A DNA stretch of 55,454 nucleotides from Synergistaceae bacterium (GCA_031272145.1 JAISUL010000080.1:1-55454); one strand, 5' to 3'. Shown: positions 314 to 54,706, numbered from the stretch's first letter. Numbers and translations are program-made. The notes: generated by a model not told the origin, from the sequence alone.

Positions 314-1413
314 TTATGGCCGTAGGTGCCTGTACAAATCCAGGGTCTCCGAGGCGCAGCGGTCCCACGAGAAGAGGCGGCAGCGCCGCCGGCCCGCCTC
401 CACTAGGGCGGAGCGAAGCTGTGCGTCAGTCGCGGCGCGGAGCATCTTGTCGGCTATGTCGTCTGTCGAAGCCGGGTCGAACAGCAAAGCTGCGTCCCCC
501 GCCACCTCCGGTATGGAGCTAGCGTTTGACGCGACGACCGGACAGCCGCGGCTCATGGCCTCAAGGATCGGAAGCCCGAAGCCCTCCCACAGCGACGGGT
601 AGACGAAGGCCGCAGCGTTTTCGTACAGGCCGGACAGAACGCCGTCGCCGCCCTCGAAGCGCGGCGGAGGACGCGAAGGCCTCGGCCATGCGCCCGAAGT
701 TCTTGTACGCGAACCGCGGCCCCACGAACAGGAAATACGGCCGAGCGGGGCGGCAGGCCGGAGCCGTCTTCGCGTCCTCGGAAGCTCCGCTGAAGCCGTG
801 ATAGATGACCCTGACCACGCAGTCGGGACGGACGGGATACATATCGAGCAGGTCTCTTTTCGTTGCCTCCGAGACGCATATGAGGGCGTCGGCCATCTCG
901 AAGGCGCGGCGTTTTTGCGCGGGGGTGTCGTCGCCTCGGAACAGCTCCGGGAACCTCTCGTGCGTAAAGTCGTGGACGGTGAACACCTTCTTGGCCTTCG
1001 GGAGGCCGTGAACGTCGTAATAGGTGGGATGATAGAGGCAGCCCGCGCCGCCGCACGGGGCGAAACGAGCCGCAAACAGCCGCCACACGGCGTCGTTGGC
1101 AGCGCGCCTCAGCACCCCAGTGCGCGGTATGATGGGCACGGGAACCCCCCATACACGGGCAGCCGAGTTTTTCAGCGCGCGGTTCAGCCCGTAGCGGTTG
1201 AGGAACAGCCCCATGAAGACGCGGACGTCAAAGTCGGGAGGCGGGCAAACCGCTACGCGGCTGATCAGCTCCGTGAAATAACGGGAAATGCCGCCGTAAG
1301 GCTGCTGAAAAACGGTGTGGTCATAGACAATAGTGTGGCGACCGGCGACCGGCGACCGGCGACCGGCGACCCATTTTACTCAAAATCGTTTTCAGCGCAT
1401 CCGTAAAAACCAC
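314..1413 (-). pseudogene. GT4-family glycosyltransferase, interrupted at both ends
   Basis: The two halves of a GT-B, family 4 glycosyltransferase lie in different frames. The N-terminal half (frame ending near 670) has the family opening IVYDHTVFQQPYGGISRYF, then [14 protein letters not shown] and the [14 protein letters not shown] segment. The C-terminal half carries [19 protein letters not shown] and [11 protein letters not shown], the donor-sugar site, and ends with TAA at 314-316. Between them, around 640-690, the frame shifts and about 40-45 codons normally found here (the GGG...E and rv...G strand region) are missing. At the 5' end no usable start codon is in frame. GTG 1413 (site GGAGGA at 1421-1426, 7-nt gap) and ATG 1374 share a frame that is off by one from the enzyme because of a heptamer repeat. 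It follows pgm by 33 nt. A surface-sugar role is inferred. A sequencing error could explain the shift but not the missing segment. Confidence 0.75.
1337..1371 (-). repeat. Heptanucleotide tandem repeat (GGTCGCC)x5 at the GT4 start
   Basis: On the minus strand ATG (1374-1372) is followed directly by five perfect GGTCGCC units and then the glycosyltransferase reading frame. The unit is 7 nt, so each gain or loss shifts the frame. With five units the frame runs into TGA after about 17 codons. With one, four or seven units ATG joins the IVYDH... frame; with one unit the protein would begin MGRHTIVYD, like normal family members. Confidence 0.85.
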
Positions 1414-1446
1414 TATTTTTTCCTCCAAACTGAAAAAACTCCGCCC

Positions 1447-3057
1447 CTACTTTATCGCCTCCGAGACGATCTCCTGCGCCTCGTCCTGAATCATCTTCAG
1501 GTGCGCCTCGCCTTTGAAGCTCTCGGCGTAGATCTTGTAGATGTCCTCCGTGCCGGACGGGCGGGCGGCGAACCAGCCGTTCTCGGTCACTACCTTCAGG
1601 CCGCCTATCGGGGCGCCGTTGCCTGGGGCGTTCGTCAACTTCGCGGTGATCTTCTCGCCGGCTAGCGAGTTGGTTCTCACCATGTCGGGCGACAGCTTCC
1701 CTAACGCGTCCTTCTGCGCGGGCGTCGCGGGCGCGTCGACGCGGGCGTAGACCGGGCTGCCGTACTTCGACGTAAGAGCCGCGTAATGCAGGGCGGGGTT
1801 CTGCTCTGTCGCTGCCGTTATCTCCGCGGCAAGCAGGTCCATAATGAAGCCGTCCTTGTCCGTCGTCCATACGCCGCCGTCCTTCCTCAGGAACGACGCC
1901 CCGGCGCTCTCCTCGCCTCCGAAGCCCATCGAGCCGTCAAGCAGCCCGTCGACGAACCACTTGAACCCCACGGGCGTCTCGATGAGGGTGCGCCCGATGC
2001 CGGCTGCCACTCTGTCTATCATCGAGCTTGAGACCAGCGTCTTGCCGACGGCGGCGGTCTTCTTCCACGAGGCGCGGGTGACGAACAGGTGCTGTATCGC
2101 GACGGCCAGATATGCGTTGGGGTTCATCAGGCCCTCCGGCGTGACTATCCCGTGGCGGTCGAAGTCCGTGTCGTTGCCGAACGCCACGTCGAATGGACAA
2201 GGCGTCTTGTCCATCACGGACACTAATCCGGCCATAGCCCAGGGGGACGAGCAGTCCATGCGTATCTTCCCGTCGTGGTCTGGCGGCATAAAGGAGAACG
2301 TCGGGTCGACGCGCTTGTTCACGACTTCGAGGTTGCGCAGGCCGTATATCGTTGCGATGGGCTCCCAGTACCCGACCCCGGCGCCGCCCATGGGGTCGAC
2401 GCCCAGCCTGACGCCGGACTCGCGTATAACGTCCATGTCGACGATGCTGCGCAGGTCGTGAACGTACGGCAGCACGTAGTCGTAAAAGCGCCCAGCCTGC
2501 ATGGCGCGCTCGAACGGAACACTCGGGATCTTTTCAAAGCCTTCCTTTATAAGTGCGTTCGCCCTCGTCTGGATGGCCTTGGTCGTTTCGGGCGAGGCAG
2601 GGCCGCCGGACGGGGGGTCGTACTTGATGCCTCCGTCGTTCGGCGGGTTGTGCGACGGGGTTATCACGATCCCGTCGGCCAAGCCCTTGTCGGCCCGCTC
2701 GCGGTTCCAGACCAGGATGGCGCGGGATATAACCGGAGTTGGGGTGTAACTCAGGTCGCTCTGGACGACGTACTCGACGTTCAGCGCGGCAAAGACCGAG
2801 ACGCACGTGCGAAGCGCGGGCTCGGACAGGGCGTGAGTGTCCATGCCTATGAAGAGCGGGCCCGTCACCCCGGCGCCCTTGCGGTGCTCGGCCACGGCCT
2901 GGGCGATCGCGGCTATGTGTGCCTCGTTGAAGCTGTGCCGCTCCGGCGACCCGCGATGCCCCGACGTGCCGAAGGACACCAAGTGCGAAGGCTCCGACGG
3001 GTCGGGCCTGTTCGTGTAATACTCCGCGACCAGCCGCGGAATGTTGAAATCTGCCAT
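1447..3057 (-). CDS. pgm: Phosphoglucomutase, alpha-D-glucose-specific
   Basis: Interconverts glucose-1-phosphate and glucose-6-phosphate in the cytoplasm, supplying precursors for UDP-glucose and surface glycans. At 536 residues it matches the bacterial alpha-phosphoglucomutase family (about 545). Visible motifs are GTSGHRGSP (30-38), the phosphoserine loop [12 protein letters not shown] (catalytic Ser 135), the metal loop [10 protein letters not shown] (294-303), the sugar loop GGEESAGAS (380-388) and the phosphate-binding [12 protein letters not shown] near the C-terminus. The start is ATG at 3057-3055. It is upstream of the damaged glycosyltransferase in the same direction, so the two were probably cotranscribed. 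No key residue is missing. Confidence 0.96.
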
Positions 3058-3101
3058 TTATAGAACCCCCTGTCTTGTCGAGGACTCGGTCGGTGGCGGC
3101 A

Positions 3102-4454
3102 TTATAGCAGGCGATCGGCTGCCAAACCCAGCACGAATCTCTCGGCATCCTCTCTTGTCCTCACCTCGCCGGACCCGACCGCTCCGTCCAGCTCCTCCAG
3201 CACGCGCCCGACCGCGCGGCCAGGCGGTATGCCGAGCAGCCTCATGACGTCATGCCCGTTCAAAGGCAGAGCATGTGCTCCGGCTCCGGCTCCGGCTTCA
3301 GAAAAGTTCTCCATAACCCTATGCAGCATCACTCGCGCCTCGGCTATGTTCGTCCCCTCGCCCATCGAACCACGAGCGTCGCACATCGCTAGCGCAAAAA
3401 GGCGCTCGGCGTCCTCGGCCCCCAGCGAGCGTATGAGCCTGACGCAGGTGCGCTCGGTCACGTTCCCGCCCGGCGTCATGTGGCAGCGCACCAAGGCTGC
3501 CACCCGATCGGCCAGCTTCCCCGGGGCAGCCCACGAGGTCAGGGTCGCGCGCGCTATCGCCTCCCCCTCCGTCTCATGCCCGAAGAAGCAGACGTGGTCG
3601 CGCTTCGGGTGCGGACGAGCCGTGACCGGCTTGCCGGCGTCGTGCAGAAGCGCGGCGAGAGCCAGAATCGTATCCTTCCCCCTGCTCTGAACCTCGGCCA
3701 GCACGCGGAACGTGTGGGCCAAAACGTCGCCCTCAGGGTGGAACTCCGCCGGCTGAGCTACTCCCCTCATAGCCTCGACCTCCGGCAGGACGAGCGGCAG
3801 CAGGCCGTACCCGTCTAGAAGCGTGAGAAACTCGTGGGGGCGCGACTCAAACCCCTTCAGAAACTCCTTCCCCAGCCGCTCGCGTGGAACTCGAATTAGA
3901 AGGCCCCCGCGGTGCTTCACGAACCCCTTGGTGACGGCGGCGGTGTCTTCATCTATATGGAACCCCAGCGAGCATGCGAAGCGCAGTAATCTGACCGCCC
4001 TGACCGGGTCGGCCTCGTACGGCAGCCACGCCGGAGCCGACGGCACGAGGCGCAGCACCTTGGCCTGAACGTCCGCCTCCCCGCCGAAGGGGTCGATTAG
4101 GTTCCCACCGGAGTCGACGGCCATGGCGTTCACGGTGAAGTCGCGCCGCCCGAGGTCTTGCTCGATCGATCCGCCGGTCAGAGGGGCTATGTCCACGGCC
4201 ATCGGGGCCGGCATGCCCAGGCCGGACAGGACGGCGCAGACCGTGGCGTCCCGCCTGCCGACCACGACTCCGCCGGTCTTTCTGGCCAGAGCGCCGATGT
4301 CGGTCTCCGAGCACACGACGTCGACGTCGGCCTCGGCCATTCCCGACACGCGGTCGCGCACTGCCCCTCCGACGAGCCAAGCCTGCTCGACGCCGCGCCG
4401 TTTCAGTTCCTCGAGAATATGCAAGTGTGGCCATAAGTGGTCTAGATGCCGCAA
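3102..4454 (-). CDS. cca: CCA tRNA nucleotidyltransferase with HD domain
   Basis: Adds or repairs the 3' CCA of tRNA, or is a close class II nucleotidyltransferase relative. The frame is open far upstream, but homology starts just after TTG 4454-4452, which has GGGAGG about ten bases before it; GTG 4481 is the alternative. From TTG the protein has 450 residues: LVGGAVRD (27-34) and the metal-binding DVD (43-45), the arm motif RRDFTVNA (103-110), WLPYEADPVRAVRLLRFA (template-independent nucleotide recognition, about 143-160), then an HD phosphohydrolase domain (H247, HD 271-272) as in the long bacterial CCA enzymes. A short Ala-Gly run (EAGAGAGAHA) near residue 410 comes from an in-frame six-base repeat (3276-3298). 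It is divergent from the M23 peptidase gene, with only about 100 bases between the start codons. Confidence 0.9.
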   Translation of the reverse strand: MRHLDHLWPHLHILEELKRRGVEQAWLVGGAVRDRVSGMAEADVDVVCSETDIGALARKTGGVVVGRRDATVCAVLSGLGMPAPMAVDIAPLTGGSIEQDLGRRDFTVNAMAVDSGGNLIDPFGGEADVQAKVLRLVPSAPAWLPYEADPVRAVRLLRFACSLGFHIDEDTAAVTKGFVKHRGGLLIRVPRERLGKEFLKGFESRPHEFLTLLDGYGLLPLVLPEVEAMRGVAQPAEFHPEGDVLAHTFRVLAEVQSRGKDTILALAALLHDAGKPVTARPHPKRDHVCFFGHETEGEAIARATLTSWAAPGKLADRVAALVRCHMTPGGNVTERTCVRLIRSLGAEDAERLFALAMCDARGSMGEGTNIAEARVMLHRVMENFSEAGAGAGAHALPLNGHDVMRLLGIPPGRAVGRVLEELDGAVGSGEVRTREDAERFVLGLAADRLL

Positions 4455-4557
4455 GATGACAGCGCCTCCCTCTATGCGCACCAGTGCCCAGCGGTGATAT
4501 ATATATGATACAATCCGGATGTCGAAGCCAGCGATTATACGTAGGGGAGTCGATATA

Positions 4558-5325
4558 GTGAACCACGAGAAGCGCGGCGCTTTGGGGTGCCTAAGACACG
4601 CGGCCGTTCTGACGTGTTTGGCTTGGATTCTGCTGATCACTCCGTCCTTCGCGGACGAAGCGAGAGATGCGGGGGGCGCAGGGGGCACGCAAGAGTCGGG
4701 CGGACGCCTGTCGGAGATATACGCGGAGAAGGGCATCGCCTCGGCGGACGCCAACGATCGCTTGGTCACGGTCAAGCTCCACGGAGTGCCTAGGGACACG
4801 AGCGACCTGAACATCAAGGGCCTCACCCCGCGCGAGCAGAGGCCGAAGCCCCCAGCCGTTCAGCCGAGCCCGCCGGTGCCGCAGAAGCCGTCCCAGCCGC
4901 CGAGCCAGCCCAGCCAACCGAAGCTGGACTTGAAGCCATCGTCGTTCCGCATGACATGGCCGGTGAACGGGAAAATATCCTCCGGCTACGGCAGGCGCGG
5001 GAAGAAGGGACGCATGCACATGGGCATAGACATCCCGGTGCCGAAGGGGACGCCGATAAAGGCGGCGATGGACGGGGTCGTGACTCAGGCGGGGAAAAAG
5101 TACCGCGGCTACGGCTACTCCGTCACGATCGACCACGGCGGCGGCATAAGCAGCTTCTACGCCCACTGCTCCAGCGTCAAGGTCAGGCCGGGCCAGGCCG
5201 TTAAGCGCGGAGCCATCGTCGGCTTGGTCGGGCGCACGGGGCGCGCCGTCGGGCATCACCTGCACTTCGAGGTAAGAAAAAACGGCAAGGCCGTGAACCC
5301 CTTGCCGTATCTGGAAGCTAGATAA
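4558..5325 (+). CDS. M23 family metallopeptidase (LytM/NlpD-like), secreted
   Basis: Predicted cell-wall endopeptidase acting in the periplasm. GTG 4558 is chosen as start because AGGGGAG sits eight bases upstream and the resulting N-terminus is a good signal peptide (positive MNHEKRG, hydrophobic AAVLTCLAWILLI, cleavage near PSFA-DE). ATG 4519 is in frame but adds charged residues. After a Pro/Gln-rich linker (roughly 95-130) comes the M23 domain: GYGRRGKKGRMHMGIDI (first zinc ligands His and Asp), SSFYAH, and HHLHFEVRKNG with the HxH zinc motif, followed by NPLPYL typical of the domain end. There is no LysM domain. A TACAAT-like element lies at 4507-4512. Confidence 0.9.
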   Translation: MNHEKRGALGCLRHAAVLTCLAWILLITPSFADEARDAGGAGGTQESGGRLSEIYAEKGIASADANDRLVTVKLHGVPRDTSDLNIKGLTPREQRPKPPAVQPSPPVPQKPSQPPSQPSQPKLDLKPSSFRMTWPVNGKISSGYGRRGKKGRMHMGIDIPVPKGTPIKAAMDGVVTQAGKKYRGYGYSVTIDHGGGISSFYAHCSSVKVRPGQAVKRGAIVGLVGRTGRAVGHHLHFEVRKNGKAVNPLPYLEAR

Positions 5326-5353
5326 GGAAGCTATATAAAGGAAGCTGGGTGAA

Positions 5354-7072
5354 TCAGGAGGCCTTCCTGCGCACCCGTCTGTCGCTGACCGAGCCCCGCG
5401 GGCGGTATGGGGCGCTTGCGACTGGCGCGTCGTCTATGAACAGCCCCCACTTCGCCAGGCCGGCGCGTCCCTGCTCCAGCTTCGACATGGCCTCGGGCAG
5501 TAGCTCGACCATGACGTAGTCGTCCTTCAGCCTTATGGCCCCAACCTCCTGGCGCTCGACCTTCAGCACCGAGCAAAGGGCATTCAGTATGCGCCCCACG
5601 TCCTTGGCGCCGTTGCCCCTCATGCGCGTCATAGTGCCGCGGGGCCGCGCGCGCCTGCCACCGAACTCGTCGCGGGCCGGGCGCTGCCTGCGTTCCCTCT
5701 CGCGCTGCAGGTCGGAGTTCAGGCTGTAGCCCTTGGACATGCGCGAGTTGAGCGCGTCAAGCAGCTTGGCCACGAGCACCTTGGCCTCGGCCCGCTCCAG
5801 CAGGTCGGACGCCCACTCCAGATATGAGTCGTCCACCTGGGACGTGAGCAGCTTCTCCTCGGCCACGTCGCGCTGAACCGCGCGGATCATGTCGAGGCCC
5901 GGCGCGTCCATCCACTCGACCTTCATCTGCGTCGAGCGGAGCATCATCTTGAACCGCCCGACCTCCACGGGGGACAGCAGGATCAGGTTTATCCCCTCGT
6001 GCCCGGCGCGCCCCGTGCGCCCGCTGCGGTGCACAAACGTGTCGCGGTCGTCCGGCAGGCCGAACTGTATCACGTGGGTCACGCCCTCGACGTCAAGCCC
6101 GCGCGCCGCCACGTTCGTGGCGACCAAGTGCGGCATCGAGCCGGACTTGAACGAGCTCAGCACCGCGTTGCGCTCCCTCTGGGTCATCTCGCCGTGGAGC
6201 GCCGCGGCGTTGAATCCCTCGTCCTGAAGCCTCTGAGCCACCTCTATGGAGTCGAGCCTCGTGTGGCAGAACATCAGGCTGCGCTTGGGGCGCTCCCAAA
6301 GCAGGACGTTCACCAGCCCCTCGAACCGCTTCCGCGACGGCACCATGTACACTCGGTGCACTATGTCCTCGTGCTGCTCCCCGTCCTTCACGAGGGAGAT
6401 GGTGCGAGGGTTCTCCCTCAGGTAGCGCTTGGCCAGCTCCCTTACCTCCGGCGGCATCGTCGCGGAGAAGAGCCACGTCCTTCGCTCCTTGGGCAGGGAG
6501 TCGAGTATGCCCTCAAGCTCCTCGCGGAAGCCCATGTCGAGCATCTGGTCCCCCTCGTCGAGGACTACGCTCGCTATGCCCGACGTGTCGAGGCTGCCCC
6601 TCTGAACGTGGTCTAGCGTGCGCCCAGGCGTCCCGACGACTATCGCGGCCCCGTCCCTCAGAGCCCGAAGCTGCGGCGACATCTCAAGCCCTCCGACTAG
6701 CGAGACGACCGAGACGTCCATGAAGCGCACGAGCCACTCGGCCTCCCTCGCGATCTGCTGTGCAAGCTCGCGGGTGGGGGACAGGATCAGAACCCTCGGC
6801 CTTCTCTCGCCTATCTCCATGTCCTGAAGAAGCGGCAGCAGGAACGCCAGCGTCTTCCCCGAGCCAGTCTTGGCCCTGACGATCAGGTCGGAGGAGCGGC
6901 AGTCGGTCTCCAGAACCTTCTCTTGAACGGGGGTCGGGGAGGTGAAGCCCTTTCTGGCTATGGCCCTCAGGAGCTCGTCCCTCACGCCGAACGAGGCGAA
7001 GGCGCGCGTTTCCTCCTCTCCGCCCGCGTCATCGGGGCGCGGTCTTTCGCATTCGTTATCCGTCATGTTCAA
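5354..7072 (-). CDS. DEAD-box ATP-dependent RNA helicase with DbpA-type RNA-binding domain
   Basis: ATP-dependent RNA helicase of the DeaD/CsdA type, expected to act on ribosome assembly or structured mRNA. In order: Q-motif (FASFGVRDELLRAI...TSPTPVQ), Walker A AKTGSGKT, SPTRELAQQ, VGTPGR, motif II, FSATMP, ARGLDVEGV, and HRSGRTGRAG (motif VI). The C-terminal part holds the DbpA RNA-binding fold (GRILNALCSVLKVERQEVGAI...DDYVMVELL), followed by a basic tail. Motif II reads DEGD rather than DEAD (bases 6548-6559). TTG 7072 is used because AGGTGG is seven bases upstream; ATG 7066 is two codons later. It is divergent from ruvB. Confidence 0.93.
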   Translation of the reverse strand: MNMTDNECERPRPDDAGGEEETRAFASFGVRDELLRAIARKGFTSPTPVQEKVLETDCRSSDLIVRAKTGSGKTLAFLLPLLQDMEIGERRPRVLILSPTRELAQQIAREAEWLVRFMDVSVVSLVGGLEMSPQLRALRDGAAIVVGTPGRTLDHVQRGSLDTSGIASVVLDEGDQMLDMGFREELEGILDSLPKERRTWLFSATMPPEVRELAKRYLRENPRTISLVKDGEQHEDIVHRVYMVPSRKRFEGLVNVLLWERPKRSLMFCHTRLDSIEVAQRLQDEGFNAAALHGEMTQRERNAVLSSFKSGSMPHLVATNVAARGLDVEGVTHVIQFGLPDDRDTFVHRSGRTGRAGHEGINLILLSPVEVGRFKMMLRSTQMKVEWMDAPGLDMIRAVQRDVAEEKLLTSQVDDSYLEWASDLLERAEAKVLVAKLLDALNSRMSKGYSLNSDLQRERERRQRPARDEFGGRRARPRGTMTRMRGNGAKDVGRILNALCSVLKVERQEVGAIRLKDDYVMVELLPEAMSKLEQGRAGLAKWGLFIDDAPVASAPYRPRGSVSDRRVRRKAS

Positions 7073-7143
7073 ACGCTTTCCACCTTTCGGATTGTGCGGG
7101 AAATATCCGTTCGCCTAATCATGTCATCCCCGCCTGCCGCCTA

Positions 7144-7152
7144 TGTTACAAT
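7144..7152 (+). promoter_or_regulatory. Extended -10 promoter candidate for ruvB
   Basis: TATGTTACAAT contains TG-N-TACAAT, an extended -10 element. No clear -35 hexamer stands 16-18 bases upstream, so the call depends on the extended -10 alone. It lies about 40-50 bases before the ruvB start in the only gap ahead of the ruvB operon. Confidence 0.4.
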
Positions 7153-7202
7153 GCCTCATAACGTTCACAACCGTAAAATTATAGGGAGATTTGACCGAAA
7201 AC

Positions 7203-8282
7203 ATGCCGAACGGTAAACCCGAAGGCGGAATTGAAAAGCACGGGGAAGGCAAGGAGCGCTTCTTCTCGCCTGCGCGATCGCCGGAGGACATGAAGATACG
7301 CCCCGTCTCTCTGGACGGGTTCATAGGGCAGGAGAGGCTGCGGGAGAAGCTGGCCGTGTACATCCAGGCGGCGCGCGGCAGGGGCGAGCCGCTCGACCAC
7401 GCCCTTTTCTACGGGCCGCCCGGCCTGGGCAAGACCACGCTCGCCGGCATCATAGCCCACGAGATGGGAGGCCAGCTGCGCGTGACGACCGGCCCAGCCC
7501 TTGAGCGGGCCGGCGACCTCGCCGCGATAGTCTCCAACGTCGAGCCAGGCGACGTGCTCTTCATAGACGAGATACACCGCCTCCCAGCCCAGGTGGAGGA
7601 GATACTCTACCCGGTCATGGAGGATTTCGCTCTTCACATCGTGCTGGGCAAAGGGCCTCTCGCCAAGACCCTGACTCTGACCCTGCCGCGCTTCACGCTC
7701 TGCGGCGCCACGACGAGGCTTGGGCTGCTCACGTCACCGCTCAGGGCGCGCTTCGGCATAGTCGAGCAGCTGTCCCTCTACGGCGAGGCGGAGCTCACGG
7801 CGATCGTCGAGAGGGGAAGCGCCTCGTTCGGCGTGGAAATATCGCGCGAGGCAGCGGAGGAGATAGCGCGGCGCTCGCGAGGAACTCCGAGGGTGGCGCT
7901 GCGCCTCCTCCGCCGCGTGAGGGACGTCGCGGCAGTCAAGGGCGAGGGAGCGATCACGGCCGCCCTGGCCAGGAGGGCGATGGACATGATGGAGATAGAC
8001 CCGGACGGCCTCGACGACGGCGACCGCAGGATACTGAGGGCGATCACGGGAAGCGGAGGCCCGGTCGGCCTGGCCACCCTGTCCGCCGCCCTAAACGAGG
8101 ACGCCCGCACCATAGAGGACATCTACGAGCCGTACCTTATCCAGATGGGCTTCCTCGAGAGGACGCCCAGGGGACGCCGCGCGACCGCGAACGGCTACGC
8201 CAGGATGGGCATCACTCCGCCTGAGGACTGGGTGCGCAACATGCCACTCTTCACCTCGGAGGAAGAGGAAGAAGAAAGTTGA
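7203..8282 (+). CDS. ruvB: Holliday junction branch migration helicase RuvB
   Basis: Hexameric AAA+ motor that drives branch migration with RuvA during recombinational repair. The protein has the RuvB signature FIGQERLREKLAVYIQAA, Walker A GPPGLGKT, Walker B LFIDEIHRL, the beta-hairpin region after the Walker B helix, the sensor GATTRLGLLTSPLRARFG with its arginine finger, and the winged-helix end (EPYLIQMGFLERTPRGR). ATG 7203 is taken as the start; TTG 7191 is in frame but only two bases from GGGAG. An extra N-terminal stretch of about 30 residues precedes the conserved domain. ruvA and ruvC are not adjacent. It overlaps the next gene by 4 nt, so the two are probably cotranslated. Confidence 0.95.
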   Translation: MPNGKPEGGIEKHGEGKERFFSPARSPEDMKIRPVSLDGFIGQERLREKLAVYIQAARGRGEPLDHALFYGPPGLGKTTLAGIIAHEMGGQLRVTTGPALERAGDLAAIVSNVEPGDVLFIDEIHRLPAQVEEILYPVMEDFALHIVLGKGPLAKTLTLTLPRFTLCGATTRLGLLTSPLRARFGIVEQLSLYGEAELTAIVERGSASFGVEISREAAEEIARRSRGTPRVALRLLRRVRDVAAVKGEGAITAALARRAMDMMEIDPDGLDDGDRRILRAITGSGGPVGLATLSAALNEDARTIEDIYEPYLIQMGFLERTPRGRRATANGYARMGITPPEDWVRNMPLFTSEEEEEES

Positions 8283-9730: not shown

Positions 9731-9757
9731 GAAGGCAAAGAGGAGGGGGTTTTCTTG

Positions 9758-10192: not shown

Positions 10193-10197
10193 TCTGG

Positions 10198-11472: not shown

Positions 11473-11481
11473 GAACGCTCC

Positions 11482-11510
11482 TTGACTTTCGTGCGGGAGG
11501 GCGCTATTAT
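11482..11510 (+). promoter_or_regulatory. Sigma-70-like promoter overlapping the next start codon
   Basis: TTGACT (11482-11487) and TATTAT (11505-11510) are 17 bases apart, close to consensus. The -10 box overlaps ATG 11509, so transcripts from this promoter would begin about 11517, after that ATG. They could only use an internal start such as TTG 11605. Confidence 0.55.
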
Positions 11511-12732: not shown

Positions 12733-12735
12733 GCC

Positions 12736-13851: not shown

Positions 13852-13858
13852 GACACAC

Positions 13859-19598: not shown

Positions 19599-19712
19599 AT
19601 GGTTTTGCCCCTTGCTTTTCCCCCAGCCCTTTGTATAATGGGCACGGCACGGCACGGCACGGCACGGCACGGCACGGCACGGCACGGCCGTTCTTTTGCG
19701 CCCATAGCCTAG
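19599..19712 (+). CDS. Possible leader ORF containing the pentamer repeat
   Basis: ATG 19599 has AAAGGAG ten bases upstream and opens a 37-codon frame (MVLPLAFPPALCIMG, then ARHGT-type repeats) that stops at TAG 19710-19712. The (GGCAC)9 run lies inside it. With eight units the same frame would instead end at TGA 19739-19741, overlapping the ATG of the FkbM gene in an ATGA junction that favours coupled translation. No homology is recognised, and the ORF could be chance. Confidence 0.3.
   Translation: MVLPLAFPPALCIMGTARHGTARHGTARHGRSFAPIA
19612..19639 (+). promoter_or_regulatory. Promoter candidate ahead of FkbM gene
   Basis: TTGCTT (19612-19617) and a perfect TATAAT (19634-19639) are 16 bases apart. 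Transcription would start near 19646, within the pentamer repeat, so repeat number would change the 5' leader of the FkbM methyltransferase mRNA. This promoter would bypass the start of the leader ORF. Confidence 0.55.
19641..19685 (+). repeat. Pentanucleotide tandem repeat (GGCAC)x9
   Basis: Nine perfect GGCAC units directly follow a TATAAT box, 52 bases before the FkbM methyltransferase start. The unit length is not a multiple of three, and such runs change length by slipped-strand mispairing. Confidence 0.95.
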
Positions 19713-19737
19713 CCCCTCTCACCCCGGAGGCTCCTCG

Positions 19738-20685
19738 ATGAGCCTCCTCTCTCGCAAGCTCCAAACCATCAAGCGTATCACCTCCGAAGCGATCGCCCTC
19801 CGCTACACCCCGTGGGAGTTCTTCCTTATGTACCTCAACTACGCCGTGGCGAACGTCACGGACAGGAACCATCGGCTGCACCACCGAGCCTTCGCCGCGC
19901 GAGTCAAAAAATCGCTCTTCCGGCGAGGCCTCTGCTCGTTCGACGCCGGGAACAGCTGCTACGTCTTCGGCAAGGTGCGCCTGCCGCGCTTGGCCGTCGC
20001 TAACGAGCTCTTCGGCGGCACGTACCGCGACACTCTGCGCGTCTACGTTGAGTTCGGGGACTGCTACGACGAATCGGTGGTGGGGGAGCTGTTCGACCTC
20101 CCCGGCGAAAACGAGGGTCCCTACGGCCTGCGCAACGCCGAGGTGGACGTCACGGTGCAGCCCGGCGACGTGGTCATAGACGCCGGGAGCTGGATCGGGG
20201 ACTTCGCAGCCTACGCCTCGGCCAAGGGCGCCTCAGCCGTCTACGCCTTCGAGCCGACCGACGAGACGTTCGAGTACCTCTTGAGGACAGCAGCGCTCAA
20301 CCCGAACATCCACCCGGTGCGGGCCGGGCTGGGCGATGCGAAGGCGCGGGCGCCGTTTTTCGCGGCCCCCTTGTCCGGAGGCAACTCCACGCTCGCCGGA
20401 AACGCCGGCGAGGAGCGCACAATCGACATCACCACGATCGACGACTTCGTCCGGGAGAACGAACTGAGCCGCGTGGACTTCATCAAGGCGGACATCGAGG
20501 GGGCAGAGCGGCAGATGCTCCGCGGGGCAGCCGAGACACTTCGCCGATTCGCGCCGAAGCTGGCCATATGCACCTACCACCTGCCAGACGACCCGGAGGT
20601 TCTGGAGCGCATCATCAAGGAGAGCAACCCAGCATACCGCGTGGTTCAGAAGCGGAAAAAGCTGTTCGCGAGCGTCGGCGCGTGA
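19738..20685 (+). CDS. FkbM family methyltransferase
   Basis: SAM-dependent methyltransferase of the FkbM family (315 residues), members of which O-methylate sugars or polyketides. The SAM site is VVIDAGSWIGDFAAYAS, followed by VYAFEPTDETFEYL. ITTIDDFVRENELSRVDFIKADIEGAE and LAICTYH are the family's C-terminal signatures. CGGAGG lies seven bases before ATG 19738. It is flanked upstream by a pentamer repeat and converges with the GIY-YIG gene. Modification of a surface glycan is inferred from the repeat and from similar genes in the window. Confidence 0.85.
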   Translation: MSLLSRKLQTIKRITSEAIALRYTPWEFFLMYLNYAVANVTDRNHRLHHRAFAARVKKSLFRRGLCSFDAGNSCYVFGKVRLPRLAVANELFGGTYRDTLRVYVEFGDCYDESVVGELFDLPGENEGPYGLRNAEVDVTVQPGDVVIDAGSWIGDFAAYASAKGASAVYAFEPTDETFEYLLRTAALNPNIHPVRAGLGDAKARAPFFAAPLSGGNSTLAGNAGEERTIDITTIDDFVRENELSRVDFIKADIEGAERQMLRGAAETLRRFAPKLAICTYHLPDDPEVLERIIKESNPAYRVVQKRKKLFASVGA

Positions 20686-23681: not shown

Positions 23682-24645
23682 TTACATCTCCAACGTGTGA
23701 TACCTGTTGATCCGAGTCCGGATCAACATTGCCTCCAGCATAAACAGCTCGTTGTCGAACCGCGCCGGATTCCCGCACTTCCGCTTGCCAAAGGTCGTGA
23801 AGCAGTCCAGGGCGTCGGAGTTTTCCCAGTTGACCTTCTCCTGAACCCAGACGAAGCCGCCGCACTGCTCGATGCACTCGGCGGCTAGCTCCGCCGTGAC
23901 GTCCCGCCCGCGCCAGCCTGGCACGTTTCCGGCTCCGGCGAAGTGCTCCCCGGCGTTCGAGTGGTGGATGAACGCGACACCGCCGTCCTTCAGGACGCGC
24001 AGTACCTCCGAGAGGTAGCTTTTCAAGATGTCAAGCCCGACGTGCACAAGCGAGTCGAACGAAAACACGAAGTCGCATGAGCCGGACTCTATCATGGGCA
24101 AAGACATGCCGTCGCCTATGAAAAACTCGGCGTTCTTCGCCGCCGCGAAGCGCTTCCGGCAAAACTCGACGCAGTTGGGCGCGAGGTCGACGCCTCGATA
24201 GCGCCCGGACGCCTGAATAAGGAACTCCGACCAGCGCCCGTGCCCAGGAGCAATCTCCAGAACAGACCCGGCGGGCAGCCAATCCGCGATCCGAGGGTGA
24301 AGGCACCCGTACCACTGCGCCACCCTGCTGCCCCAATCAATGCTCCACTCATCGCCGTCCTCCGGCCAAGAGTACTCGTTCCAAGCACCGTAGTTCCGCT
24401 CCACGGTGTTGTCGGCAGGATGCTTACGAAACCGCGACAACGCACGGGACGCGAGCGAGCGCAGCAGCCTATACCAACGCCGCGGACTGAGCAGCGCCCT
24501 TACGGGCGACAGCAGGGAAGGCCGTATGAACAACGCCCATGCAAGGGCTAGAATTTTCTCGCGTTTACGCTCCTTTTCTTCTGCTAGGCTTTGCTCTACC
24601 CCCCCCCCCCGTGTGGACAACCTGTGGACAACTCTGTTCTTTCAT
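23682..24645 (-). CDS. SAM methyltransferase with poly-G tract, OFF as read
   Basis: Class I methyltransferase: SAM motif VLEIAPGHGRW, acidic loop GVDLAPNCVEF, motif IV/post-I SCDFVFSFDSLVHV, then VLRVLKDGGVAFIHHSN. About 70 residues precede the domain. The best start is ATG 24645 with AAAGGAG eight bases upstream, giving MKEQSCPQVVHT and then a run of twelve G. With 12 G this frame ends at TAA after 26 codons. With 11 or 14 G it enters the methyltransferase frame. A TTG at 24620 is already in that frame but has no good ribosome site. It sits in the tyrS-lpxL-fba run, so a surface-lipid or glycan target is inferred. Confidence 0.82.
24599..24610 (-). repeat. Homopolymer run of 12 G (minus strand) in the methyltransferase 5' end
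   Basis: Twelve C on the plus strand, 12 G in the coding sense, 35 bases after ATG 24645. This is the typical size of slippage-prone G runs in Campylobacter and Neisseria phase-variable genes. It is also where base-calling errors are most likely. Confidence 0.9.
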
Positions 24646-40984: not shown

Positions 40985-41011
40985 GGCGGTAAGGCGGTAG
41001 GGATGCAGAGA

Positions 41012-42146: not shown

Positions 42147-42202
42147 CGGCGAGCGAGAAGACAGCGGAGATATTGTGGACGAGTTGAAGGAGGTGCGGCA
42201 CT

Positions 42203-42709: not shown

Positions 42710-42774
42710 CGGCGAGCGAGAAGAGGGCGTGGAGGTCGATGGGGGCGAATATGTGCAGTTATAGACTCGGGGTA

Positions 42775-42803
42775 TTGTGTTTTTGCGCGAGTGGTGGTAA
42801 CAT
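42775..42803 (+). promoter_or_regulatory. Promoter candidate for the GT2-GT56 pair
   Basis: TTGTGT (42775-42780), 17-base spacer, TAACAT (42798-42803), 22 bases before the GT2 start. AAGGAGG (42811-42817) is the ribosome site. Confidence 0.4.
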
Positions 42804-42824
42804 AGTAGGCAAGGAGGGGTTGCC

Positions 42825-45537: not shown

Positions 45538-45648
45538 CCCGGTCGACAAGTGAGACGAACGTGGCGCTCAGCCTGTTAAGTGCGGCCTACGCCGCCTAGA
45601 TTTGCCCCACGTCGCCGACGACTTGTTTTTTTTCGTTGGTCCGGGCTT
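45536..45648 (+). terminator. Nested-stem terminator between converging operons
   Basis: ACAAGT (45546-45551) pairs with ACTTGT (45621-45626), enclosing ACGTGG/CCACGT and GCGGC-CTAC-GCCGC, and is followed by eight T (45626-45633). An outer GCCCGG/CCGGGC pair flanks both. Three nested stems before the T run is more elaborate than a standard terminator. The 130-base gap holds nothing else. Confidence 0.6.
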
Positions 45649-45667
45649 GACGTTAAGTGGTCAGTCA

Positions 45668-47614: not shown

Positions 47615-47628
47615 CTTACTCCACCTTT

Positions 47629-48462
47629 CTACATAGCGTACAGTACGTGCTCATAAGACGAACACCCGTGGAGGCGAAAATATATCTTCGCATCCGGCAT
47701 CACTGTTACGTTCTCGAACCCCTTGTCGCTGACGGTTTTTCTAAGCGCAGCAGCGTTGCCAGCGTCTGGCTCGAATGCGAAGACGTGCCTCCATCGTCTG
47801 CCCGTCTCACGCGCGAAGTCAATGATCGTGTCGCCAGCATAGGCACCGCAGTCAACGAAGGTCTCGTTCGCGTCTACGCGCCAGGGGGCGGGGCTGATAA
47901 CGTCCTTCGGGAAGTAATGTTCTCCAGAAAGACAGTTCAGCAGATATTTGCAGTCGTGAGTGATTCTAACGTTCAGAAACGCGACCATAGCCTCGCGCGA
48001 CCGCTGGTCGGCCAGCATGAAGTACGTCTCGTCAAAGCCGTCACGATGAGAGAGCACGTATTCATATGTTATGTCGAGGCGCGCCGGCGGCTCGTCGTAA
48101 GTACAGGCGGCGTCCAGGACGAATATCCTATCGACGCACCCGCTGTCCAAAATGGTTTTGAACCGCCGCGTCAACAAGGAGTCGGCCATCGTGAACGCCA
48201 GAAGGACGTTGAATTTTTTCAGCCCAATGCGGCTTAAGCCACTCAGCGGGACGACCTTCATTCCGTGAAATTCGGCGTGGGGACGGTAGTAGTCATCAGT
48301 CACGCATACACCTTGCACTGCGACCCCGTGGCCTTTCAAGAAGCCAAACGCCCTCTCTGCGATGTCCCCAGAGCCGTAGAGAACCAGCGGCAGGTCGGAG
48401 TTCACAACCTCTTCGGCCAGTTCGTGCCTGCGGTCCTTGCGTTCAAGCATCATTTCGATCAT
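47629..48462 (-). CDS. FkbM-type methyltransferase, truncated, with Rossmann-like N-terminal module
   Basis: A 277-residue protein. The N-terminal module LVLYGSGDIAERAFGFL resembles those in the neighbouring gene products. The methyltransferase begins at ETFVDCGAYAGDTIIDFA and HVFAFEPDAGNAAAL, an FkbM pattern. It stops at SSYEHVLYAM, about 70-80 residues before the family's usual DiEGaE and aIs.YH motifs. The stop is followed at once by the next gene, with no remnant visible in other frames. It is likely nonfunctional as a methyltransferase, or a half-domain. Confidence 0.72.
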   Translation of the reverse strand: MIEMMLERKDRRHELAEEVVNSDLPLVLYGSGDIAERAFGFLKGHGVAVQGVCVTDDYYRPHAEFHGMKVVPLSGLSRIGLKKFNVLLAFTMADSLLTRRFKTILDSGCVDRIFVLDAACTYDEPPARLDITYEYVLSHRDGFDETYFMLADQRSREAMVAFLNVRITHDCKYLLNCLSGEHYFPKDVISPAPWRVDANETFVDCGAYAGDTIIDFARETGRRWRHVFAFEPDAGNAAALRKTVSDKGFENVTVMPDAKIYFRLHGCSSYEHVLYAM

Positions 48463-48495
48463 ATCGAGCTACCTCCAAGTTGTGTTCAGCCTTCT

Positions 48496-49458
48496 TCACG
48501 CGCTCCATTCGCTTATCTCCCGCTTCGATATGCGCCAAGGCGCAGCGCACTCGTCGATCTTGCAAAACCGGCAAAACGGTATTGGACGCGCAAGAAATCT
48601 CAAAATCTCCCGTCCGTTTCCCGCCGTGTAGATGTCGATCGAATCCTTATCTGTGACCGGAACGGACTTCTCGAAGTATTTGTTGAACAAATGAACATAA
48701 GCCGCCGACGTACACGTGTAAAGACGCCCGTTGCGCAAGACGATGCATTCGTTCCCGCTGTGGCAGTAGGCAAAGTTCAGCATTGCCGACCCTTTGCCCT
48801 CCAGATCGATGCCGAAGTGATAAAACCTCTTTTGATCTGCTCCCTCAAAATCGGAAAACGGACGCACTTCGACGCCGAAAGACGCTCCTTTCGCCTTTGC
48901 CCTTCGGAACTGCTCCTCCATGCATGGATAGACAGTGACGACCACGGCTATCTTGTTCTCCGAGCATGAACGCCAGAAACCGTCGTCCTTGCCGTTCAGC
49001 AGAAGGCCGTTTGTCACTAGCTCGACGGGTGCTTTGGAAGCGTCGGGGAAGGCTTCCCGCGCCGCTGTGAAAAACTCCTCCACCTTGGGATGCAGCAGAG
49101 GCTCACCGCCCATGAGGTACATTGCCTCGATCTTGCCGTCAAACAGCTTCGCTATCCGCTGCGTGTCCCTCCTGAACGTCTCGAGGTCGAGAAAAAATTC
49201 CTCGGCCAGAGGCGCGAAATGCGAGCACTCGGCGCAGTTGAGGTTGCAGTGGTCGGTCAGGTGGACGGCAAACTTCAGCTGCTTCCGCGTAGGCTTGGCA
49301 CCCATTCTGAACACCGGTAAATATATTCCCTCGTAGACGTACCGTTTCACTCTATATGTCAGGCGGCGGCGGATGATCCCAAGCGTGCGGAACAGCCCCT
49401 CCTGCTTGAGGTAGCGGTGGAACGAGTCGCCCACGATGTAGCGCAAGGTTCTAAACAT
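48496..49458 (-). CDS. Radical SAM protein
   Basis: A 320-residue radical SAM enzyme: cluster motif CNLNCAEC (Cys 71, 75, 78; CxxxCxxC), SAM motif YLMGGEPLLHP, then ELVTNGLLL. The C-terminal Cys cluster (Cys in FAYCHSGNEC and FCRFCKIDEC) indicates one or more auxiliary Fe-S clusters like those of SPASM or twitch proteins. In a glycan cluster it may modify a sugar or an attached group (inference). A 60-residue helical N-terminal region precedes the barrel. Confidence 0.88.
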   Translation of the reverse strand: MFRTLRYIVGDSFHRYLKQEGLFRTLGIIRRRLTYRVKRYVYEGIYLPVFRMGAKPTRKQLKFAVHLTDHCNLNCAECSHFAPLAEEFFLDLETFRRDTQRIAKLFDGKIEAMYLMGGEPLLHPKVEEFFTAAREAFPDASKAPVELVTNGLLLNGKDDGFWRSCSENKIAVVVTVYPCMEEQFRRAKAKGASFGVEVRPFSDFEGADQKRFYHFGIDLEGKGSAMLNFAYCHSGNECIVLRNGRLYTCTSAAYVHLFNKYFEKSVPVTDKDSIDIYTAGNGREILRFLARPIPFCRFCKIDECAAPWRISKREISEWSA

Positions 49459-49473
49459 GCCAGGTCACCGTGG

Positions 49474-50661
49474 CTATACCAAGCCGTGGATGCCGTACAA
49501 CAGAACAGGACGCCGCTCTCGATCCAAGACCGGTATTTGCTTGATGCTGCCGCGCAGCTTGGAGAACGCGCTGTCCAAAGCGTCAATGTCGATGGTGACG
49601 CCATTCCTGTTGCATATGCCGCCACAGGTCTCTCTTTCGCACGCGCGCTCTCTCTCGTGTCGCTCAACGTCGCCGCGCGTTATGACGCCGACGTAGCGGC
49701 CCGCCTTATCCACCACGATCAACAGGTGGAAGCCCTTCCTTCTGAAAAGCCAGAACCGTGCGTCATCGACAAGGGCATCTTCATGCAGCAAAATCTCCTG
49801 CGGTATCTCCCTGTAACCGAGGCTTGAGTCCAAGATCAGGTCTTTGCTGGCGCTATACTTTATGCCGTCAGCAAACATGGCTTCGTCCCAATCCGAAAAA
49901 CCATCGCCGTTCCAAACAGGTGCTGTTAGTGTCCCCATAGATCCGAACAGCCCGGCGCTCTGAGCGTACCCTTTGAGAAGGCTGCTCTGAAGCCACGCGC
50001 CGTCGAACGGCATGAGAAACTCCGCCTTATCCTCGCTCTGGCGGAATACGGTTACAAAAAACAAGTCTCCGTCACGCTCGGTGTTTACAAACTCCGGGGA
50101 GTAATAATGCGAAAAACCCGATTTGTCTGACTGCACATAAAGCCCAAGAATTTCGTAACGGTTCGCCAAAGCCAGCTCTAACAGTAGCTTAGGCGTGTAA
50201 TGAAAATAACCGTGGTTGATGCACCCCTGCGTTGGATAGAAACCGATGAGCACTCCTCCCGCGCGGCATAGGTCGTGCATGTTCCGAAATACCTCGTACT
50301 GGTTGAAACAGTGCTCGGCCGTGCCGAAGTTCGTGACCAAGTCGAACTCCTTATTAAACCCATACTCGCTCTTTATGCTGCGGTTCAAGTCGAAAACGAT
50401 GGCACCGTTTCTGCCGTCGGCGTCTATGCATTGATAGTCGCATATACCCAAGGCAGCGTAGCCGGCAGCCACGTGCGTCAAAGTGAAGTTGGCATCTCCG
50501 GATATGTCGCGCAACCGCTTTTCGCAGGCTTCAATGTTGTCGCCCAGATCCTGAGAACCTAGCTCGATAACAGAACGGAAGTCACATCCATTCTTATCGC
50601 GCATGAACCCCTGTTTTTTCATCTCGGCTAGGAAAAACCAAGCACCAACTGACATTCCCAT
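49474..50661 (-). CDS. Methyltransferase-like protein fused to a CBS-domain pair
   Basis: 395 residues. Residues 31-215 look like a class I methyltransferase (VIELGSQDLGDN motif I, FDLVTNFGTAEHCFN, LCRAGGVLIGFYPTQGCINH). Residues 285-390 resemble a CBS pair: REIPQEILLHEDALVDDARFW split by a helix, GFHLLIVVDKAGRYVGVITRGDVERH, then IKQIPVLDRERRPVLLYG. CBS pairs sense adenosyl nucleotides, so the methyltransferase may be regulated by SAM, AMP or ATP. I know of no standard family with this fusion. It lies between the DUF4422 and radical SAM genes on one strand. Confidence 0.7.
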   Translation of the reverse strand: MGMSVGAWFFLAEMKKQGFMRDKNGCDFRSVIELGSQDLGDNIEACEKRLRDISGDANFTLTHVAAGYAALGICDYQCIDADGRNGAIVFDLNRSIKSEYGFNKEFDLVTNFGTAEHCFNQYEVFRNMHDLCRAGGVLIGFYPTQGCINHGYFHYTPKLLLELALANRYEILGLYVQSDKSGFSHYYSPEFVNTERDGDLFFVTVFRQSEDKAEFLMPFDGAWLQSSLLKGYAQSAGLFGSMGTLTAPVWNGDGFSDWDEAMFADGIKYSASKDLILDSSLGYREIPQEILLHEDALVDDARFWLFRRKGFHLLIVVDKAGRYVGVITRGDVERHERERACERETCGGICNRNGVTIDIDALDSAFSKLRGSIKQIPVLDRERRPVLLYGIHGLV

Positions 50662-50714
50662 GAAAACGCCCTCCTCAAAAGCTAAAACACACCTTGTTCC
50701 AAAGCACGAACGGC

Positions 50715-52285
<1,571 letters not shown>

Positions 52286-52316
52286 ATCATATGCCCCCTA
52301 TGTTCACTCCGCTTTA

Positions 52317-52478
52317 TCAACCGCGGAGCGCCCACGTCATCTCGCCGGCGCCGTTGACCACGGCTCTGGCCTTCCTGTACGTCTTGCCCTCCATGCACAG
52401 CCCCACGCGCAGGGTTTCCTCGTACCCGCCCCCGCTCTGCGGGTAGAATATCAAGCTGAAAGTGTAATCGCGAAACAT
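52317..52478 (-). CDS. 53-residue protein of unknown function
   Basis: ATG 52478-52476 shares its A with the TAA stop of the UDP-sugar dehydrogenase (TAATG), and GGGGAAGG lies just before, so it is likely translationally coupled. The product begins MFRDYTFSLIFYPQSGGGY, then EETLRVGLCMEGKTYRKARA, and ends TWALRG. It is strand-rich and not a family I recognise. It fills most of the gap between the dehydrogenase and DUF4422 genes. Confidence 0.6.
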   Translation of the reverse strand: MFRDYTFSLIFYPQSGGGYEETLRVGLCMEGKTYRKARAVVNGAGEMTWALRG

Positions 52479-53851
52479 TACCTTCCCCTCGCGTCCGTCA
52501 AGAACCGGAAGCTACTGCCCTCTCCCAGCCCAACATACCGAATATTCCTAAGCCCCTCGAACGGGAAGCCCCTGAACATCCTCCAGCAGTCTATCAGATA
52601 CAGCGGCCTCGTCAAGCGCCGATCCACAGCAGCCCAGTCGATCCCCGCGTACTCCGGGTGAGCGACCGCGAGTACGACCGCGCCGCCGTCCGCCGACAGC
52701 ACGGCTTCGGTCGGGTCGGCGTACTTTACGGCGCGTCCGGACGGCCATCTCGTCAGGTCGGGCTCCGCCGCGGGGTCGTGAAGCGACACTCCGTAGCCGG
52801 CGTCCAGCAGGCGATCCATCAGCATCAGGGACTGAGACCGCTCCGTTATGTGCGTGCCAGGCTTGTAAGACAGCCCCAGCAGCGCCACCCTCCCAGACGG
52901 AGTAGGGACATATGTTTCTACATATTTGAATAGGTCGTCCACTATGAAGTCGTTGGACGCCACAGTCGCGGGGGGCAAGAACAGCTTCACCCCGTTCAGC
53001 TCGGCCAGCCTCTGGAACGCCACGTTGTCCCTCGGGAAACACGGGCCAGCGAACCCAAGCCCGCCCTTGAGGCAGCGCCCGCCAACCCTCGTGTCAGCAC
53101 CGACCGCTCCGGCCACGGCGTCCACGTCCGCTCCGTCGATCGCGCCGCAAAGCCTCGCCAGCTCGTTTGCGTAGGTTATCTTCATCGTTACGTAGCAGTT
53201 CAGGGCGAGCTTGGCTATCTCAGCGTTGGTCGGCGACATGACGGCAAAGCGCGGCTCGTTGTCGCACACGCTCTCGTAGAGCCGCCTCACCATCCCCGCC
53301 GTCCGCTCGTCCGACGCACCTATGAGCACCACGTCGGGGTTCAGAAAATCGCGCAGCACCGTTCCCAGCGCTATGAACTCCGGGTTGTACGCGAAGCCGA
53401 AGTCACGCCCGCGCCTGCCGCCGGTCAGCCCCTCGAGCAGCGGCATGAACTCTCCCTCGGACGAGCCGGGCATCACGGTCGAGACCACGTCCACGACGTG
53501 GAAATCCCCACGCTCCACCTTCTCCTTCAAGGCCGGAGCAAGGGAGTTCAGCACCGAGAGCACGAAGCCGTTCTCGAACGCACCGTCCGGGCCGCTGGGC
53601 GTCGGGACGATTATCAGGGTTATGTCAGAGCCGCGGAGGGCTGCGCCGGCGTCCGCCGTGAACTCCATGCGCCCGTAAGAGCGCTCCAGAAGCTCCGGCA
53701 GGCCGCTTTCCCTTATGGGGCAGGCGCGGCGGTTCAGAGCCTCGACCACGGACGCGGCGCTGTCCACCCCGACTACGTCATGTCCCTTCGACGCCACGCA
53801 CGCGGCTGTGCAGAGGCCGAGCTTGCCCAAGCCTACGACCGAGACCCTCAT
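52478..53851 (-). CDS. UDP-glucose/GDP-mannose dehydrogenase family protein
   Basis: NAD-dependent oxidation of a nucleotide sugar to the uronic acid. It has 457 residues: dinucleotide loop VVGLGKLGLCTAACVASKGH, VPTPSGPDG, EFIALGTVLRDFLNPD, LALNCYVTMKITYANEL, catalytic Cys in GFAGPCFPRDN, and LLGLSYKPGTHITERS. The YKPGT segment and length fit either UDP-glucose or UDP-ManNAc-type dehydrogenases. It provides a uronic acid to the island's glycan (inference). It begins four bases before the upstream methyltransferase ends. Confidence 0.9.
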   Translation of the reverse strand: MRVSVVGLGKLGLCTAACVASKGHDVVGVDSAASVVEALNRRACPIRESGLPELLERSYGRMEFTADAGAALRGSDITLIIVPTPSGPDGAFENGFVLSVLNSLAPALKEKVERGDFHVVDVVSTVMPGSSEGEFMPLLEGLTGGRRGRDFGFAYNPEFIALGTVLRDFLNPDVVLIGASDERTAGMVRRLYESVCDNEPRFAVMSPTNAEIAKLALNCYVTMKITYANELARLCGAIDGADVDAVAGAVGADTRVGGRCLKGGLGFAGPCFPRDNVAFQRLAELNGVKLFLPPATVASNDFIVDDLFKYVETYVPTPSGRVALLGLSYKPGTHITERSQSLMLMDRLLDAGYGVSLHDPAAEPDLTRWPSGRAVKYADPTEAVLSADGGAVVLAVAHPEYAGIDWAAVDRRLTRPLYLIDCWRMFRGFPFEGLRNIRYVGLGEGSSFRFLTDARGR

Positions 53852-53854
53852 CGG

Positions 53855-54706
53855 TCACTCCCCCTTGCCGCCGGGCAGCCGCGCGTTGACGCACAGATGC
53901 CAGCCGAGACGCCGTTCCAGAAATCGAAAGAACGGGCGCGGGAGAATATTAAAGTACCATATATATATATATATATAGGCCTTATATTTCTCGACGTCGT
54001 ACGGGAATATGTGATCCACGAACATAGACTCTATGGTCATGCCGGAGAGCAGCGTCTCCACCGACCTTTTCGTGTAGGTGTAGGTCACGGGGCAGCCGGT
54101 CTGGGCCTCGGAGTTCTCGGCTATCCACTTGTCCAGCGCCCAGAATCGGAACCCCCGCGAGGCGAGGATCGCCCCGACCTTCCATGATATGCGGTGGTAG
54201 ACCATGAGCTTGAGGAGGCTCTCCGCGTCCATGTACTTTTTGATCTGCTCTATGGCAGCCCTCGGGTGCGGCGTGTGGTGGATGACGCCGAAGCTGTAGA
54301 CGAGGTCGTACCTCTCGACCGGGACTGTGCTCGACAGCTCCTCGGCGTTCGCCCGATAGAATCTTATCCTGTCGGTCAGGCCGAAGACCTCGGCGCGGCG
54401 TGCGGCTATTTTGAGCGACTCGTCGGACAGGTCGACCGCCGTCACGTCGGCGCCGGCGCGGGCGAAGCTGATCGTGTCCGTGCCGATGCCGCAGCCAACC
54501 TCCAGAACTTTTTTGCCCCGCCAGCGGTCGAACTCGGCGAACAGGGGTATGTGGGGCTCGACGAAGTACTTCCGCTTCTCGACCTCGTCGAAGTACTCCT
54601 TCGTGCCGACCTCCTTGTTTGAGTGCCGGATGTTGCACGGACGCGCGTTCCAGTATGAGCGCACGTCGTCTATGGTTTTGGCGTCAAAAGGCGATGAAGG
54701 CATCAC
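53855..54706 (-). CDS. SAM-dependent methyltransferase with TA repeat near its 3' end
   Basis: A 283-residue class I methyltransferase: VLEVGCGIGTDTISFARAGA (motif I), VTAVDLSDESLKIA, RYDLVYSFGVIHHTPHP, then the extended C-terminal part. Near residue 243 a TA repeat codes for AYIYIYIWYF and the protein continues RPFFRFLERRLGWHL. The frame is open as read, so this copy is ON. ATG 54706 overlaps the upstream gene's stop by four bases. Confidence 0.86.
   Translation of the reverse strand: MMPSSPFDAKTIDDVRSYWNARPCNIRHSNKEVGTKEYFDEVEKRKYFVEPHIPLFAEFDRWRGKKVLEVGCGIGTDTISFARAGADVTAVDLSDESLKIAARRAEVFGLTDRIRFYRANAEELSSTVPVERYDLVYSFGVIHHTPHPRAAIEQIKKYMDAESLLKLMVYHRISWKVGAILASRGFRFWALDKWIAENSEAQTGCPVTYTYTKRSVETLLSGMTIESMFVDHIFPYDVEKYKAYIYIYIWYFNILPRPFFRFLERRLGWHLCVNARLPGGKGE
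53959..53977 (-). repeat. TA dinucleotide run of 19 nt in coding sequence
   Basis: Nine and a half AT units inside the methyltransferase gene. Gain or loss of a unit would replace the last 35 or so residues. Confidence 0.9.

Follow-up and report, generated by a model that had tools for sequence, protein, structure and literature searches.

Phase variation of surface glycans and restriction-modification genes through simple sequence repeats (SSRs) is well established (PMC5084427, PMC2651432, PMC6321876, PMC2823697, PMC3498834), mostly as a strategy of pathogens of people and animals. The phasomes of Neisseria meningitidis, Haemophilus influenzae, Campylobacter, and Helicobacter consist of many dispersed tracts at glycan, O-acetyltransferase, and restriction-modification genes, with frame switching near gene starts and C-terminal switching (PMC5084427, PMC2651432, PMC6321876, PMC2823697). 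In a survey of four H. influenzae genomes, the switches were mostly tetranucleotides and only eight dinucleotide loci occurred, all of five units. The lex2A/lex2B pair of H. influenzae has a leader-gene arrangement with a variable repeat upstream of a lipopolysaccharide (LPS) gene. In Mycoplasma mycoides subsp. capri, a sense-strand AG tract lies within one gene, the DNA methyltransferase (mod) gene MmyCI, for which 12 AG units were shown biochemically to be OFF and 10 to be ON (PMC3498834), and in Helicobacter pylori a variable G-repeat upstream of the controlled LPS gene (tlpB/hp0102), not inside it, is read by a small RNA (PMC8295292). Here we describe a 55,454-nucleotide (nt) stretch of an uncultured Synergistaceae bacterium (GCA_031272145.1, JAISUL010000080.1:1-55454; the window), which is one complete contig (C59) and which, as judged from its sequence, very probably carries five contingency loci of a genome-wide SSR phase-variation system directed mainly at surface-glycan genes. 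The kind of system is already known; new are the phylum in which it occurs, the predominance of long AG tracts, and a class of loci in which a repeat-bearing leader would be coupled to its gene.

The repeats of this genome (97.8% complete, 107 contigs) far exceed chance. A tandem-unit scan covering 1.97 Mb of the 2.05 Mb genome (1.91 Mb of stretches and the window) returned 38 AG/CT tracts of at least 10 units (range 10–31), together with dozens of other arrays: three AT/TA tracts, ~10 G/C runs of 10–13, and three 4-mer, six 5-mer, fourteen 7-mer, and five 8-mer arrays. Simulations of the full 1.97 Mb under a Markov model that had been trained on sequence with the tracts excised produced no AG/CT tract of this length, no array of 4–8 nt units, and no dinucleotide array of at least 9 units. 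Homopolymer runs of at least 9, taken together, are no more frequent than chance predicts, and most 9-base runs were therefore discarded; the exception is G/C runs of at least 11 (0–1 per simulation), which exceed chance. GC/CG tracts of 6 units were counted as chance. Tracts beyond chance whose unit lengths are not multiples of three occur inside or before genes.

The genes that carry these tracts are a restricted set. Among the 18 AG-tract genes that could be assigned by Pfam, GT8 (5), GT2 (2), GT4 (1), GT56 (1), DUF4422 (1), FkbM (3), and MBOAT (1) families are found, the remainder being DUF268 (2), a radical SAM enzyme (1), and HsdS (1). Glycosyltransferases, FkbM methyltransferases, and the O-acyltransferase thus account for 14/18, compared to a single surface-glycan gene among 20 random control genes, and the equal density in unrelated genes that would have spoken against a dedicated system is not what the genome displays. 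Counting all types of repeat, most genes joined by a tract code for glycosyltransferases, FkbM or other methyltransferases, and O-acyltransferases. Measured against these controls, the tracts target surface-glycan or restriction-modification genes rather than housekeeping genes; exceptions, with shorter tracts, include the genes of an S8 and an M20 peptidase and of a DUF819 membrane protein. The HsdS gene is a candidate phasevarion, as its (GA)15 tract (L126 8409–8438, G000:C97) follows the first specificity domain (PF01420) and leaves the second half out of frame. The AG tracts sit deep within genes and also at gene starts, and AG is on the sense strand of all tracts to which a gene could be assigned; genome-wide, a Shine-Dalgarno sequence (SD) and start codon occur upstream of 37 tracts.

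Within the window, the heptamer, pentamer, C12, CT/AG, and AT repeats reported in an earlier note on this sequence are all present at the coordinates given there, with no further array of comparable length, and unit number would alter the predicted translated product or its coupling at all five loci in silico (Table 1). Slipped-strand mispairing at replication would add or remove units, and for tracts within a gene or separating its start codon from its body (AG, poly-G, AT, heptamer), the number of units modulo 3 would set whether the full enzyme is made, such that cells would differ in the glycan-modifying enzymes that they express. The poly-G gene is ON at 11 or 14 G and OFF at the present 12. 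The two parts of the AG-tract gene are joined at 21 or 24 units, while 22 lead to an early stop; since a DUF4422 homologue without the tract in the relative G024 reads straight across the site and has a clearly homologous tail, the present 22-unit allele is OFF or truncated. The AT gene is full-length at 6, 9, and 12 units, its C-terminus being otherwise altered or cut, and is ON at present, as 9 units give a full C-terminus and a length equal to that of the G004 homologue (YKSYIYKYVWYF). Four or seven heptamer copies place the leader in the frame of the enzyme and the present five do not. The proposal that the heptamer, poly-G, and AG frames are each OFF by one unit therefore holds, in that loss of one unit reaches the ON frame, with the qualification that for the heptamer gene the joining of the frame at 4 copies would not restore the enzyme. 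We infer that tract lengths switch in the population, that leader and gene are coupled at the pentamer-type loci, that the products are located at the surface, and that there is a benefit, which would be the evasion of phage, host, or competitor.

The pentamer locus differs from the other four in that the tract lies in a separate leader open reading frame (ORF) upstream of an FkbM methyltransferase gene. With 8 or 11 GGCAC copies, the leader stop (TGA) overlaps the gene start (ATGA), and with 9 or 10 copies it lies 28–33 nt upstream, in keeping with the suggestion that loss of one unit would couple the leader to the gene. The suggestion is strengthened by four paralogous FkbM loci of this design, with an SD, a start codon placed 42 nt ahead of the tract in every case, a leader peptide, (GGCAC)n or (GGCTC)n units, and a 45–51 nt spacer ahead of ATGA. 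At all five loci one of the three copy-number classes ends the leader on the TGA overlapping the start and the other two stop 25–39 nt upstream; present copy numbers leave one ON and four OFF. The overlap in one state (5/5) recurs at L071 (n = 9) and L101 (n + 1). Predicted stems, in which codons 2–4 pair with the SD and the loop holds the start codon, cover the SD of the gene at the five FkbM loci (8, 8, 6, 6, and 9 bp), and stems of at least 6 bp over the SD (5/5) occur in just 2.7% of 473 control genes. Repeat-gated translational coupling is the most likely mode of action of this class according to these predictions: the number of units modulo 3 would set whether ribosomes translating the leader reach its stop at the overlapping ATGA, where they would melt the hairpin that covers the ribosome-binding site of the gene, and in the other frames ribosomes would fall off upstream. 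Where the repeat upstream of the H. pylori LPS gene is read by a small RNA (PMC8295292), here the position of the leader stop relative to ATGA, combined with the hairpin, would act as the switch.

An alternative for the pentamer-type loci alone gives the tract a role in transcription or as 5' untranslated region (5'UTR), with RNA starting inside the tract after TTGnnn-N16-19-TATAAT and unit number tuning 5'UTR length or promoter escape without a leader ORF. A TATAAT is found no more than 3 nt from the tract at 10 of the 28 arrays of 4, 5, 7, or 8 nt units (window 19634–19639, L146, L079 (two), L059, L071, L101, L049, L140, and L155; ~0.03 expected) and at 0 of 73 dinucleotide or 3n-unit tracts, and in most of the ten a TTGACA/TTGACT/TTGCNN box is located 16–19 nt further upstream. 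Promoter repeats tune expression elsewhere, as do the heptamers of hmw1A/hmw2A in H. influenzae (PMC2651432). This placement also counts against coupling itself, because transcripts may start inside the tract and bypass the leader ORF, and it is joined by other unfavorable points: the fold z-scores of the hairpins are modest (−1.0 to −4.3), covariation in an ungapped alignment amounts to one compensatory pair alongside some broken pairs, and the five FkbM loci are related copies and thus not five independent observations. A hand alignment from the start codon is suggestive, with three hairpin pairs changing on both sides between two stem types. Against the transcriptional alternative, the −35/−10 spacing is unaffected by the tract, and a purely transcriptional role fails to explain why an SD and start codon lie 42 nt upstream, why all five FkbM loci have two closed frames and a single coupled one, and why stems cover the SD. 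We consider it rather unlikely, though by no means negligible, and retain repeat-gated coupling for this class.

The sequences upstream of the tracts form clusters. One cassette (promoter-like sequence, SD, and ATG) is found ahead of six AG tracts, each directly adjoining the start codon, and related sequence precedes one G10 and one TA9 tract. A second, VVFTDA-like leader occurs before heptamer, octamer, and tetramer tracts, and in the window it is the leader of the heptamer, shared with three further SSR loci that have other repeat units; the pentamer leader is a third type. That one leader can be followed by different repeat units suggests copying of cassettes with replacement of their units, and the distance from start to tract is fixed at 41–43 nt in ten loci. 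We tentatively propose, as a plausible scheme, that the system may be modular, with start cassettes (often TATAAT, an SD, and a start 41–43 nt before the tract), interchangeable 4/5/7/8-nt units, and an AG/G/AT cassette copied before unrelated glycan genes, one version of which would use a leader ORF and a hairpin over the SD to gate translational coupling. Two paralogous FkbM genes carry (AG)7.5(AGAT)8 (L148 5967–6010) and (GA)28 (L153 8200–8255) at the same site, with near-identical sequence 3' of the repeat.

A second explanation is that the tracts are passive, a neutral microsatellite expansion in dispensable glycan genes whose out-of-frame members are pseudogenes. Based on the hexamer coding model used to judge gene frames, 19 gene-internal AG tracts have coding sequence on both sides, and 14 of these are out of frame, as gene decay would produce; the 5/19 in frame fit free ON/OFF switching, for which one-third is expected by chance. 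Beyond the tract, the coding signal of the 14 out-of-frame genes extends to within ~65 nt of the stop, which argues against long-dead genes, and loci whose upstream cassettes are 88–97% identical carry 14–22.5 AG units, such that tract length appears to change faster than the flanks. Decay also leaves unexplained the tracts at start codons behind conserved SD/leader modules with fixed spacing. MutS1 and MutL were not seen in G004 (99% complete) or G022 (75% complete), two genomes of the same family (genus g5) with AG tracts, which speaks for passive expansion, while this genome has MutS1 (850 aa) and MutL intact; a mutator origin through loss of mismatch repair is therefore rejected here.

Within the window, the heptamer gene speaks for decay. 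Its homologues begin M(N/D)(V/I)FYDH at the position of the tract, and alignment with seven homologues in relatives places a second lesion near 645–652, where ~33 residues are absent and the frame is shifted; slippage of the heptamer alone therefore cannot restore the enzyme. That this gene is broken whatever its copy number weighs against the phase-variable interpretation, as do the presence of MutS1 and MutL, which gives no indication of a mutator background, the draft assembly of 107 contigs, in which the consensus may not give the exact length of tracts that span as much as 62 nt, and the representation of its own genus by a single genome in the comparison set. Taken across the loci, we regard decay as improbable and phase variation as much the better account. 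The idea that AG tracts are flexible Arg-Glu linkers whose in-frame length is selected for protein function draws on AG being carried on the sense strand wherever a gene is assigned, open in all frames, and encoding charged runs tolerable in loops, and is rejected as very improbable because 14/19 internal tracts break the frame, with a G024 homologue lacking the linker altogether. A foreign or eukaryotic origin of the contigs that carry AG tracts is likewise unsupported, as the AG genes belong to bacterial glycan families and have the coding signature of the genome.

The distribution of the tracts among relatives places the system in context. The nearest phosphoglucomutase matches are Synergistaceae metagenome-assembled genomes (77–79% identity), and Lab288P3bin103, a near relative (69%), was recovered from the termite Labiotermes labralis, sample Lab288 (PMC7024585); by such relatives, the genome may be of termite-gut origin. 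Compared with 166 other Synergistota genomes, AG tracts of at least 12 units occur in only 5 of the 167, and the 348 overlapping AG hits of this genome are followed by 29 in each of the next two. AG-tract loci of other genera resemble those described here: FkbM genes are split out of frame by AG tracts in G004 and G022, with one FkbM gene of G004 in frame, and two GT2 paralogues of G003 carry AG tracts. The rest of the genome and these relatives uphold the view that a dispersed SSR set at surface-glycan genes exists in a Synergistota-like genome. In the part of the literature that was searched, no paper joining phase variation with Synergistota was found. Unlike the phasomes of the pathogens, long AG dinucleotides (10–31 units) dominate here and also lie deep inside genes, and unlike the single methyltransferase of M. 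mycoides, the AG tracts number ~38, most of them in glycan genes and one in HsdS. With an uncultured Synergistaceae that has termite-gut relatives, it becomes possible to ask beyond the known pathogens whether, for example, phage or competitor pressure, as opposed to adaptive immunity, drives such systems, and the pentamer loci provide a testable switch acting through leader-ORF coupling. The AG tracts have one further property: TTT occurs within 6 nt after the tract in 28/38 tracts (at least 9.5 units) compared to a background of 2.6%, in all three codon phases (for example, window 51002–51045, L130 15793, and L122 13275), and is not evident in the AG tracts of relatives.

Table 1. Coordinates of the five repeat loci and their associated genes in the window
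Feature	Position	Strand	Remarks
Glycosyltransferase body (PF13439)	317–1334	−	Pfam assignment
Heptamer tract (GGTCGCC)5	1337–1371	−	(GGCGACC)5 on plus strand; start of GT4-type glycosyltransferase
Heptamer leader, 42 nt	1372–1413	−	GTG start (VVFTDALKTILSKM); SD GGAGG before start
Pentamer leader ORF start (MVLPLAFPPALCIM)	19599–19640	+	SD AAGGAG; TTGCTT-16-TATAAT inside, ending 1 nt before tract
Pentamer tract (GGCAC)9.6	19641–19688	+	Within leader ORF
Predicted hairpin	19726–19747	+	Gene SD (GGAGGCT) pairs with AGCCTCC in codons 2–4; start codon in loop
FkbM methyltransferase (PF05050)	19738–20685	+	Target of pentamer leader
Class I SAM methyltransferase (PF13649/PF08241)	23682–24596	−	64% identical to G008 and G024 homologues
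Poly-G12	24599–24610	−	C12 on plus strand; between start ATG (24645, SD AAAGGAG) and methyltransferase
C-terminal 90 codons of DUF4422 gene	50718–50987	−	Beyond AG tract; out of frame at 22 units
(AG)22 CG (AG)5 tract	50990–51045	−	Inside DUF4422 glycosyltransferase-like gene; on plus strand (CT)22 at 51002–51045 and interrupted (CT)5 at 50990–50999
DUF4422 (PF14393) part	51046–52285	−	Upstream of AG tract
Class I SAM methyltransferase with AT tract	53855–54706	−	
AT tract, 9.5 repeats (9 full units)	53959–53977	−	Encodes YIYIYI; near 3' end of methyltransferase

Several smaller features accompany these loci. Two TTGTCCACA motifs, the only two in the window, lie 2 nt apart at 24612–24631 on the minus strand, in the leader codons just before the poly-G run; they resemble the DnaA boxes of some bacteria, and their occurrence could be due to chance. 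Elsewhere in the genome, two tandem radical SAM paralogues (L046 7923 and 9002) each have a C12 run near the 3' end that would switch the C-terminus. The G024 homologue of the DUF4422 gene (L276/L280, G024:C119) has a frame change of its own between residues ~306 and 320, where no repeat is visible.
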